Source of the DNA: Colius striatus
Lineage: Eukaryota; Chordata; Aves; Coliiformes; Coliidae
DNA length: 64,000 nucleotides
Assembly: GCF_028858725.1 (NCBI RefSeq)
Contig: NC_084769.1
Span: 7,813,501-7,877,500, forward strand
Direction: 5' to 3'
In this document: positions 53,473 through 56,448 of the stretch, in pieces
Layout of the letters: each line of letters begins with the position of its first letter
How positions within the stretch are numbered: position 1 is the first letter of the stretch
The notes under the pieces: generated by a model
The model's input: only the letters and a program-made list of their open reading frames with translations
Database searches by the model: none
What the model was told of the DNA's origin: nothing
Made by a program: the position numbers and the translations under genes

Positions 53473-53882
53473 TTCCTTGCTATAACAAACTTTTCTCTGC
53501 TTCAAAGGTTTCTTCATTCCTCCCCCTAGGACATTTTCTTTATCATGGTCAATTTTGGGCAGACACTATGCAGATAGTTTTTTTTGAGTATTCAATTCAC
53601 CTGTAGTTTTCACATTTGCACCTATATCTTGGCAGTTGTACTTGAGGCCATTTTGCCATGGGCTGGGCAGGAACCTCTGCAAATGCTTCAAGTACTCAGG
53701 GTCCTGACACTACAGAGCAGTTAAAGTCTGGAGAATCCTGCTGTTGAAAACTCTAGGTGAGACCCTTTCCCCCAGCACCTGTTTGTTCTACATAGCCCAA
53801 GAAACCTTACAGTGTCTAAAGATGCCATACAACCAGAACTGAAATGACTCTAAGTTTAGTGTGCACTACTTCCTTGTGTCTT

Positions 53883-54889
53883 TGTCGTGGTTTAGGCCCA
53901 TCAGGGAACAAAGACCACGATTAGCCTCAAGTACCGAAGAGGCTGAGAATTGCTCGAGGGCAGGGAGGGCTTAATTGCCGCTTAAGGTTCAGGACAAAGC
54001 AGACCAGGCTACTCGGTTTGGGGAAGAAAAAAAAAAAAACCAGAAAATAATTTAATGCGACATCAACTAAAACATACCCACAAAAACCCAAAACATAACC
54101 AAAACGAAACAACACAGAGGAATACGTCAATGAAGAGTCCAACCAGCCTTTTTAAGAACACCTTCCCGCCACACCTCCCCTCTTCCCGGGCTCAGAGCCC
54201 TGATCCCGGGGTTTTTACCTTGCCCCCCCCTGAACGGTTCGGAGGGGCAGGCAGTGGGGGTCTCAGTCAGTCTGCTCCCAACAGCTTCTGCCGTTCGTCC
54301 CTCCTCAGGACGTGCCAACTCCACACCAGTCCTCCCTGCAAGTCCGTGGGGTAGCTCACACACATGGCAGCCCTGCACGGGCTGCTCCGACGTGCACCCA
54401 GTCCAAAGGCTGCAGCTCCTCTCTGCTTCTCGTGTGGGGCTGCTCTGCGGCGTGCAGGCTCTCCAACACGGCCTGGGCCATGGCCGTCTCCCCACACAGT
54501 CCCTCGCCCGTCCGGGCTCACTCACATGGAGCTGCTGGTGGCTCTCAGTCCTGCCACGGATCTCCATAAGTTTCAGGGGCACAGCTTGCATTCTCGCCAC
54601 GGCCTGCAGAAGGGTCTCCGGTCTACTGCTCCTCCTTCCTTCCTCCTTCTCTGGCCGAAGGGTCCGCGTGGTCGCCTCCATCTTGTATCCCTCTTACACC
54701 TCCTGACTCGCATTTCAAATTCCCGTCCCCTAAATACTGATCGCAGAGGCGCCAGATTGGCCCAGCCAGGCCGGAGGTGGGTGTGAACCTAGGAGCCGGG
54801 GGAGGGTCCGCAAACTCTTTACCGGGTCTTCACTGCAACCCGCTCCCCCTGTTACTAAGCCAAAAGCTGCTCCTTGCTAAACCAGAACA
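53883..54889 (-). repeat. 3' LTR of the young element
   Basis: Left-hand copy, identical to the other LTR except at 54790. Its CCAAT box is at 54756-54760, TATTTA at 54731-54736 and ATTAAA at 54051-54056. The 13-nt A tract after GGGAAG (T tract on the sense strand) has the same length in both LTRs, further evidence of a young age. Confidence 0.92.
54127..54681 (-). CDS. 184-codon open frame inside the 3' LTR (second copy)
   Basis: Identical to the frame in the 5' LTR, with the same start context and stop. In this copy the downstream ATTAAA (54051-54056) could end a transcript initiated in the same LTR, so a single LTR has the parts of a small transcription unit: CCAAT, TATA-like box, open frame and poly(A) signal. 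Whether it is translated cannot be judged from one genome. Confidence 0.33.
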   Translation of the reverse strand: MEATTRTLRPEKEEGRRSSRPETLLQAVARMQAVPLKLMEIRGRTESHQQLHVSEPGRARDCVGRRPWPRPCWRACTPQSSPTREAERSCSLWTGCTSEQPVQGCHVCELPHGLAGRTGVELARPEEGRTAEAVGSRLTETPTACPSEPFRGGQGKNPGIRALSPGRGEVWREGVLKKAGWTLH

Positions 54890-54906
54890 TTCCACCCCTC
54901 GCCTCT
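54890..54906 (-). promoter_or_regulatory. Polypurine tract
   Basis: Minus-strand AGAGGCGAGGGGTGGAA directly abuts the TG of the 3' LTR, as expected for the primer of plus-strand DNA synthesis. One C interrupts the purine run. Confidence 0.85.
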
Positions 54907-55154
54907 GCGAATCACTTATTCAAGAAAACATAAGGGAATCTGAACCACCTTCACAAATCAACATATAGTAACTAAGATCAAACAGAACCAAACACTTCCC
55001 CGTGAAAATAAATGATATACACATAACACAATAAATACACATAAATAAAAATCCACCCCTAGACACAAGGTAGCCTCACCCAGACGTCTGTTTTGTCCTT
55101 TACCACTCCCAATTCACCATCCTTATCACAAATCCCAATCTCCAGCAGCTCGAG
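54907..55154 (-). other. Internal region of the young element, non-coding
   Basis: 248 bp between polypurine tract and primer-binding site. It contains AT-rich sequence with several TTTATT-type motifs on the minus strand and no open frame of note. On the minus strand a GGTGAG motif (within CTGGGTGAGGC) could act as a splice donor. Packaging signals would be expected here or in the LTR but cannot be recognised by eye. Confidence 0.7.
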
Positions 55155-55172
55155 GCCCCACGTTGGGCGCCA
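55155..55172 (-). promoter_or_regulatory. Primer-binding site for tRNA-Lys(1,2)
   Basis: On the minus strand this reads TGGCGCCCAACGTGGGGC, the 18-nt complement of the 3' end of tRNA-Lys(1,2), five bases (TTTTT) after the end of the 5' LTR. It fixes the orientation of the element. All 18 positions match the sequence known from lentiviral and betaretroviral primer sites. Confidence 0.93.
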
Positions 55173-55177
55173 AAAAA

Positions 55178-56184
55178 TGTCGTGGTTTAGGCCCATCAGG
55201 GAACAAAGACCACGATTAGCCTCAAGTACCGAAGAGGCTGAGAATTGCTCGAGGGCAGGGAGGGCTTAATTGCCGCTTAAGGTTCAGGACAAAGCAGACC
55301 AGGCTACTCGGTTTGGGGAAGAAAAAAAAAAAAACCAGAAAATAATTTAATGCGACATCAACTAAAACATACCCACAAAAACCCAAAACATAACCAAAAC
55401 GAAACAACACAGAGGAATACGTCAATGAAGAGTCCAACCAGCCTTTTTAAGAACACCTTCCCGCCACACCTCCCCTCTTCCCGGGCTCAGAGCCCTGATC
55501 CCGGGGTTTTTACCTTGCCCCCCCCTGAACGGTTCGGAGGGGCAGGCAGTGGGGGTCTCAGTCAGTCTGCTCCCAACAGCTTCTGCCGTTCGTCCCTCCT
55601 CAGGACGTGCCAACTCCACACCAGTCCTCCCTGCAAGTCCGTGGGGTAGCTCACACACATGGCAGCCCTGCACGGGCTGCTCCGACGTGCACCCAGTCCA
55701 AAGGCTGCAGCTCCTCTCTGCTTCTCGTGTGGGGCTGCTCTGCGGCGTGCAGGCTCTCCAACACGGCCTGGGCCATGGCCGTCTCCCCACACAGTCCCTC
55801 GCCCGTCCGGGCTCACTCACATGGAGCTGCTGGTGGCTCTCAGTCCTGCCACGGATCTCCATAAGTTTCAGGGGCACAGCTTGCATTCTCGCCACGGCCT
55901 GCAGAAGGGTCTCCGGTCTACTGCTCCTCCTTCCTTCCTCCTTCTCTGGCCGAAGGGTCCGCGTGGTCGCCTCCATCTTGTATCCCTCTTACACCTCCTG
56001 ACTCGCATTTCAAATTCCCGTCCCCTAAATACTGATCGCAGAGGCGCCAGATTGGCCCAGCCAGGCCGGAGGTGGGTGTGAACCCAGGAGCCGGGGGAGG
56101 GTCCGCAAACTCTTTACCGGGTCTTCACTGCAACCCGCTCCCCCTGTTACTAAGCCAAAAGCTGCTCCTTGCTAAACCAGAACA
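55178..56184 (-). repeat. 5' LTR of the young element
   Basis: Right-hand copy, which is the 5' LTR for minus-strand transcription. Reading in that direction it begins TGTTCTGGTTTAGC, has a CCAAT box (56051-56055), a TATTTA (56026-56031), a 184-codon open frame (55976 down to 55422), ATTAAA (55346-55351) and ends CCTAAACCACGACA. Confidence 0.92.
55422..55976 (-). CDS. 184-codon open frame inside the 5' LTR, function unknown
   Basis: The frame runs in the sense direction of the element and starts about 50 nt after a TATTTA box. The ATG has A at -3 and G at +4. The predicted protein is highly charged and rich in Arg, Glu, Gly and Pro, begins MEATTRTLRPEKEEGRRSS, has no membrane segment, and contains scattered Cys residues. 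I recognise no family. The identical frame is present in the other LTR (54681 down to 54127). Caution is needed: the DNA here is GC-rich and two other frames of 140-150 codons are open on the opposite strand. The start AAGATGGAGGC also resembles a YY1 site, which often sits just after LTR start sites. Coding status is therefore open. Confidence 0.35.
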   Translation of the reverse strand: MEATTRTLRPEKEEGRRSSRPETLLQAVARMQAVPLKLMEIRGRTESHQQLHVSEPGRARDCVGRRPWPRPCWRACTPQSSPTREAERSCSLWTGCTSEQPVQGCHVCELPHGLAGRTGVELARPEEGRTAEAVGSRLTETPTACPSEPFRGGQGKNPGIRALSPGRGEVWREGVLKKAGWTLH

Positions 56185-56448
56185 GTCTTCACCAAGAAGC
56201 TTTATGCCTTTTCTTTCTGTCTGCCTTCTCACCAAGCTGATCCTGTAGTGATGACTCAAGTCTTGACATTTTGTTCTCTCAGACAAGGAATGCTGAAGGT
56301 TCATCCTCTTTCAAGTAAGCCTTTCAAAGACAAAGGAATGTTTCTTATTCTCTCTATTATGAATTCACAAAGTCAGGCCAAAACTTACTGATCTGGGCCC
56401 TACAGGGATCTTTACATTGTTCATACTACACCATCCATAGTCTCTGAA

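Follow-up and report, generated by a model that had tools for sequence, protein, structure and literature searches.

A short LTR element at the locus

The 64,000-nucleotide stretch of the Colius striatus genome analysed here (the window; assembly GCF_028858725.1, contig NC_084769.1, positions 7,813,501 to 7,877,500) carries, at positions 53883-56184, a complete short long terminal repeat (LTR) element made of paired 1007-bp LTRs around 288 bp. The placement of its primer site and purine tract puts the element on the minus strand, with the 5' LTR at 55178-56184 and the 3' LTR at 53883-54889. The primer site, TGGCGCCCAACGTGGGGC (55155-55172, minus strand), is the only match to this motif in the window at up to 3 mismatches; it agrees at 18/18 positions with the 3' end of tRNA-Lys(CUU) and at 13/18 with that of tRNA-Lys(UUU), in the forms that we take these tRNAs to have. 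The purine tract, GCAGAGGCGAGGGGTGGAA (54890-54908, minus strand), adjoins the 3' LTR and is broken up by pyrimidines. An initial annotation, made from the sequence alone, had called both signals intact, which holds for the tRNA-Lys primer site and is generous for the purine tract. The entire internal region (54890-55177, minus strand) is non-coding, as that annotation had also stated: it has no long frame and no Pfam match. The target duplication, GTCTT, is exact on both sides (53878-53882 and 56185-56189), and among lengths of 3-8 bp only 5 bp gives a match. The window contains no N bases, and Rfam and tRNA scans of it gave no matches. A few CR1-like motifs, along with the genome size of 1.21 Gb, fit a bird genome. 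Phage records gave no match, and a search of viral contigs with the LTR-end plus primer-site pattern found none; the 15-base LTR end that occurs in 13 viral contigs was set aside as chance, with no other significant match (best E 0.33).

Alignment of the two LTRs, 1007 bp each, gave no gaps and a single mismatch (T at 54790, C at 56085), the one difference that had been counted by eye. The state found in the 5' LTR is common to 57/62 other LTR sequences of the same type, and the alternative occurs in 5/62; the difference is most simply read as one change in the 3' LTR after insertion. One difference in 1007 bp corresponds to an age of 0.03-0.66 million years under published or generally used rates (PMC7341801 and PMC2329609, for the rates that they quote), with a 95% Poisson range across these rates from near zero to 3.7 million years, a dating that presupposes absence of gene conversion. 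The CpG ratio, 0.57 in the LTR and 0.18 in the remaining window, also fits a recent arrival, and it is plausible that the insertion is still polymorphic within the species.

A gene-less family in many copies

The host genome (1.21 Gb in 191 contigs) was searched with the 288 bp, with a junction probe and with a reverse-join probe, both described below, each search scoring its best 40 candidates (of 125, 949 and 2911, respectively). The 288-bp search yielded 125 candidate places, and all 40 scored were 97-100% identical. We fetched these 40 copies with their flanks (L014-L053). The LTR upstream of the 288 bp is the whole LTR of the window element (LTR A) in 25, a partial LTR A in 3, and a different LTR (LTR B) in 12. 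Exact 5-bp duplications flank 23 of the 25 copies in which both LTRs A are whole, the window copy included. Leaving out gaps, the two LTRs differ by no substitution in 14 of these A/A copies, by one in five (including the window copy), by 2-6 in four, and by 19 and 37 in the two most divergent. The closest sibling of the window copy, L016, is alike over the 288 bp where aligned and has LTRs 0.2-0.3% apart from it. A search with the LTR only gave 4424 first-look candidates, which suggests that many solo copies of LTR A are present in the genome.

The window element is an ordinary, very young member of this gene-less LTR family, family A, which has LTRs of about 1000 bp and 288 bp inside. It is no single exceptional insertion, as 14/24 other two-LTR copies have fewer LTR substitutions and 4/24 an equal number. 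The proposal of the initial annotation that the element must borrow its proteins is supported: the 288-bp form is found at many separate sites, each with a target duplication of its own, so A was already short when it was copied and did not lose its interior at the insertion sites. Paired LTRs, primer site, interrupted purine tract, target duplication, non-coding interior and multiplication in the short form are all present, as in non-autonomous LTR retrotransposons. Of the traits of ERVK/betaretrovirus-like elements, family A has the tRNA-Lys primer site, which is not peculiar to that class; their usual 6-bp target duplication is replaced by 5 bp in the window copy and by an exact 5 bp in 23/25 A/A copies.

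One unusual arrangement in the family is an inverted dimer (L020/L021, host C1:132.19 Mb) of two A elements joined via shortened 5' LTRs. GTGGT lies on both outer sides of it, and it is apparently one insertion with two U5 ends.

Elements with two unlike LTRs

The point of interest lies in two-LTR hybrids among the sister copies and not in the window element itself. The 12 copies with LTR B carry it, at 426-453 bp, as their 5' LTR, and then show the usual order of primer site, 288-bp region and LTR A. LTR A and LTR B are alike over 38 bp at the U5 end (87%), beside the primer site, and over about 11 bp at the start; since they share just these stretches, the LTR swap is not explained by ordinary LTR homology. 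Four of these hybrids have exact duplications (L035, L039, L046 and L053). Another five, on contig C39, have the duplication GACAG in common (L040, L041, L048, L049 and L050) and seem to go back to a single insertion by segmental copying. The duplication of L038 matches at 4/5 positions, and L034 has a large gap in its 3' LTR and no matching duplication was found for it. The twelfth, L018, is a composite, described below.

The junction search, with LTR B joined to the 288 bp, gave 949 candidates, and 34 of the 40 scored match over 221-240 of 240 bases, 19 of them on contig C39 and 15 on other contigs. Ends were read at 22 of the 34 places (the 12 others are all on C39), ten places outside C39 being read as short end pieces. 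LTR B leads to LTR A between exact duplications at 12 of these 22 places, five of which are the apparent copies of one insertion. By outcome, the 15 places outside C39 comprise seven exact ones with an LTR A 3' end (the additional ones at C40:37.2 Mb, C40:61.6 Mb and C3:34.1 Mb), one composite with exact outer duplications, one with an exact 5-mer beside an altered LTR end base (C6:25.1 Mb), three matching at 4/5 (C4:55.4 Mb, C6:1.3 Mb and C1:97.7 Mb) and three that gave no readable outcome. Contig C39 (42 Mb), which is W-like by inference, also carries many of the 150 best integrase matches.

The composite (L018/L107/L114, host C6:47.21 Mb) begins with LTR B, the 288-bp region and LTR A, continues with a primer site and the B leader and, past an unread middle, closes with a purine tract of B type and LTR B in inverted orientation; TCCTG is present at either outer end. 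The inverted LTR B at the far end rules out a plain tandem, and we read the order of its parts as that of a chain of copying intermediates that would have been inserted together. The reverse join, in which LTR A precedes the B leader, matched over its full length at one place only among the 40 scored, and that place lies inside this composite.

The hybrids have more than one origin

Placing the 11 usable hybrids on the LTR-A tree takes five label changes, and their grouping in one clade is rejected (p-AU, the approximately unbiased test, 9.6e-9), as is a single clade of the four young hybrids (p-AU 1.5e-68). Hybrids partly intermingle with B/B copies in the LTR-B tree. Hybrid L053 provides a link between the two trees: its LTR B is identical to that of the B/B copy L068, its LTR A is 0.3% from that of the A/A copy L052, and its 288 bp is identical to those of L051 and L052 where aligned. 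The hybrids have arisen more than once.

A coding family as the likely helper

In the host genome, 124 forward and 124 reverse places match the primer-site pattern; 100 of them were listed. Twenty-three fall within the 40 copies described above, and the other 77 were fetched and typed: a third LTR, C, with its own leader at 32, LTR B with a B leader at 22, a B variant with a B leader at 11, LTR A with the 288-bp region at 8, LTR A with a B leader at 1, and other types at 3. Family B has LTRs of about 448 bp and an interior of roughly 5.3 kb. We inspected the 3' ends of 15 B or B-variant copies, plus L018, and found ten whole LTR-B pairs; all ten have exact 5-bp duplications and five are identical pairs, so family B has been active recently. 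Of the other five copies, one was cut by the end of its piece, two showed no LTR, and two were variants that gave no clear reading.

Sampled pieces from the interior of B elements consist entirely or mostly of open frame and match the Pfam families RVT_1, RNase_H and rve; two gag-region pieces gave no match above the Pfam cut-off. The PDB chains nearest to the B reverse transcriptase are those of Pr125Pol (E 1e-47; next chains 1e-43), which we take to be foamy virus chains. A foamy-type reverse transcriptase, on that identification, together with the 5-bp duplication, agrees with class III/ERVL-like elements, and family B is probably a coding, recently active element of this kind. The final ten bases of the window purine tract are common to the 3' ends of B elements. 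The hybrids point to family B as the most likely provider of enzymes for A. The expectation in the initial annotation of a recently active helper is in this respect supported, although the label of helper retrovirus is unproven. The genome search that it had suggested, for a helper with matching LTRs, would miss family B because LTR B is not LTR A.

Two arrays were seen on the way. At host C9:5.035-5.053 Mb lies a tandem array of four B-type primer sites with a spacing of 5818-5819 bp, and at C40:83.17-83.71 Mb sixteen near-equal integrase matches within about 0.5 Mb are probably an array of one element family.

Other families were considered as partners. Family C (for example L057 and L165), the commonest type in the primer-site census, is a second short LTR family and is distantly related to A, parts of its LTR and leader being 72-77% alike. 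It has the same primer site as A, and its copies have a median divergence of 1% at the LTR end, less than B. LTR C was found upstream of the 288-bp region in 0/40 copies. We read the absence of such hybrids as partner choice by packaging; timing could also account for it. One sequence, L065, was considered as a C hybrid and rejected, as its upstream part matches the presumed start of LTR C. As a helper, family C was set aside for its shortness: in the single copy that was checked, about 0.75 kb separates the primer site from the end of the 3' LTR, and two pieces from 2-5 kb past the primer sites of other C copies, which lack a long frame, probably represent host DNA. Another candidate was a gammaretrovirus-like family with frames of 1163 residues. 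It was first considered because one copy directly precedes an A element, and was rejected as a helper for want of a clear purine tract before the adjoining LTR; at seven other loci with similar integrase matches (L131-L137), sampled over about 2.2 kb downstream, no LTR A, B or C was found. L131 and L133 (host C7:16.39 Mb and C8:12.30 Mb) represent a gammaretrovirus-like family, with an MLV-type (murine leukaemia virus) integrase C-terminus at one locus and an env-like match at another.

A proposed route to the hybrids

We propose, with fair though not full confidence, that A is copied by the enzymes of B and that the B/A hybrids result from an inter-molecular second strand transfer. The A RNA would retain the signals needed for copying, namely the LTR ends, the tRNA-Lys primer site and the purine tract, and would be copied and inserted by the enzymes of a coding family, most likely B, presumably in shared particles. 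During reverse transcription, plus-strand strong-stop DNA, which comprises the LTR and the primer site, has to anneal to the primer site in which the minus strand ends (as outlined in PMC3187697). If B strong-stop DNA sometimes paired with the primer site that ends an A minus strand, the product would start with LTR B as its 5' LTR, continue through the primer site and the 288-bp region, and finish with LTR A as its 3' LTR, and integrase would insert it with a normal 5-bp duplication. The distance from purine tract to primer site is 288 bases in A and about 5.3 kb in B, so B strong-stop DNA would often meet an A primer site first. Hybrids would be nearly one-way because the primer site of A is reached far earlier than that of B.

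Several observations weigh against this reading. In the LTR-A tree the seven older hybrids group together as a clade and might share one origin, and in the LTR-B tree a single hybrid origin is not formally rejected (p-AU 0.07). The simplest form of the transfer predicts a B-type spacer beside the primer site, as seen in L018 and L039; the spacer is mixed in L053, A-type in L035, L038, L046 and the five GACAG copies, and TTATT in L034, so that in many cases the switch must have been at the U5 end. Judged from these spacers, the switch point would fall somewhere in the segment that comprises the primer site, the spacer and the common U5 end. At C1:97.7 Mb (L180 and L181; 97.66 Mb), the 288-bp region that follows LTR B leads to a B-like, not an A-like, 3' end; this locus may be an older form bounded by B ends at either side. 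The one-way bias rests on two genome searches that score their best 40 candidates each, and within the 100 listed primer sites the asymmetry is not significant alone (4/31 versus 1/34, p 0.18). Finally, other coding families might also serve A, although we suppose B to be the helper of the ordinary A/A copies too.

Alternative explanations

The hybrid could instead be an element that propagates itself with two different LTRs, with no repeated accident. The clade of older hybrids is what such an element would leave, and the five fetched C39 copies all have GACAG, as expected of segmental copies. The young hybrids, however, match different A/A and B/B parents, and the R regions as placed share no identical stretch longer than 7 bases, so that the first strand transfer of such an element should fail; we consider this origin unlikely.

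The two LTRs could also have come together after insertion, if A and B copies recombined unequally or underwent gene conversion. Recombination of this kind does seem to be present in the family, as L042, whose LTRs differ by 37 substitutions, lacks a target duplication. Crossing over would mix the flanks, yet at 12 of the 22 places the duplications are exact and the 3' LTR is LTR A, and conversion needs homology at the outer LTR ends, where only about 11 bp are alike. This makes an origin after insertion quite improbable, and an inter-molecular transfer during copying remains our preferred reading.

A further question is whether the LTR encodes a protein that helps the element, much as the LTR of mouse mammary tumour virus carries a gene. 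Each LTR has an open frame of 184 codons plus stop in U3 (54127-54681 in the 3' LTR and 55422-55976 in the 5' LTR, both minus strand). This ATG frame was equalled in only 6 of 2000 shuffles of the LTR sense strand, its start codon is kept in most copies, and pN/pS within it is 0.56 among 20 young LTRs. Against a gene, an antisense frame reaches 190 codons, and 188 codons were reached on either strand in 296/2000 shuffles; pN/pS is 0.53 in one antisense frame; periodicity is weak, with 115/2000 shuffles equally high; synonymous changes number 27 versus 23.8 expected (P 0.24) and stops 0 versus 2.3 expected (P 0.10); several young copies carry frameshifts; and one protein search found no homologue and Pfam no match. 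With no clear constraint on the frame among the 20 young LTRs, we judged neither copy of it to be a gene, and a helping protein of this type is very doubtful.

Insertion of a full-length provirus at the window site followed by loss of its coding region would, at one locus, leave the same two LTRs and target duplication, but the 288 bp has identical ends at many sites with different duplications, and later loss is hardly credible. That the second window LTR is an assembly duplication, which the initial annotation had raised against its own reading and which two nearly identical LTRs 288 bp apart might suggest, can be dismissed: primer site and purine tract are correctly placed between the LTRs, the flanks are duplicated, and 22 other copies show the layout with exact duplications at other sites.

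Relation to known systems and significance

Family A resembles the short TRIM and LARD elements in its LTRs, primer site, purine tract, non-coding interior, many copies and borrowed enzymes; it differs from plant TRIMs in its much longer LTRs, of about 1 kb, and from LARDs in its much shorter interior. The wheat RLG_Wilma, Sabrina and WHAM elements are described as non-autonomous and coding partners that share only few essential motifs, much like A and B, and gene conversion or template switching is named there as a possible way for LTRs to pass between populations; unlike in our hybrids, the joined LTRs of different copies in that account arise via inter-element recombination only, and lack target duplications (PMC9744471). 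Among avian elements, TguERVL2, of about 6.4 kb including LTRs, is described with a reverse transcriptase, partial and complete RNase H and an integrase (PMC6523648), which fit the pieces of B, a likeness by description and not by sequence comparison. The 2.25-kb LTR insertion near NDP in crows is likewise avian, similar in total size and still segregating; it was set aside as belonging to another family, being described with 296-bp LTRs and an assignment to ERVK (PMC7341801). HERV-K124 has inverted LTRs ascribed partly to template switching, somewhat as in our composite, and as presented it concerns one element family and not two partners (PMC3625200).

Judging by titles and the beginnings of abstracts, none of the literature searched, which mostly leaves out older strand-transfer work, describes hybrids with unlike LTRs in birds. 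The coding element that moves a given gene-less one is as a rule guessed at through LTRs or primer sites that the two have in common. The partners A and B share little LTR sequence, yet hybrids flanked by target duplications point to a partner straight from the genome. The hybrids also suggest that plus-strand transfer between different molecules takes place naturally; for the minus strand, inter-molecular transfer has been reported (as cited in PMC3187697).

More generally, and here our confidence falls just short of even, inter-element second strand transfer may be a side effect that regularly, and in one direction, accompanies the mobilisation of a very short element, whose early-exposed primer site would catch the strong-stop DNA of its helper. 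Elements with unlike LTRs within one clean target duplication would then serve as a general fingerprint for matching gene-less elements to their helpers. In C. striatus, the young A, B and hybrid copies make both the helper and the timing of its activity testable within one species.

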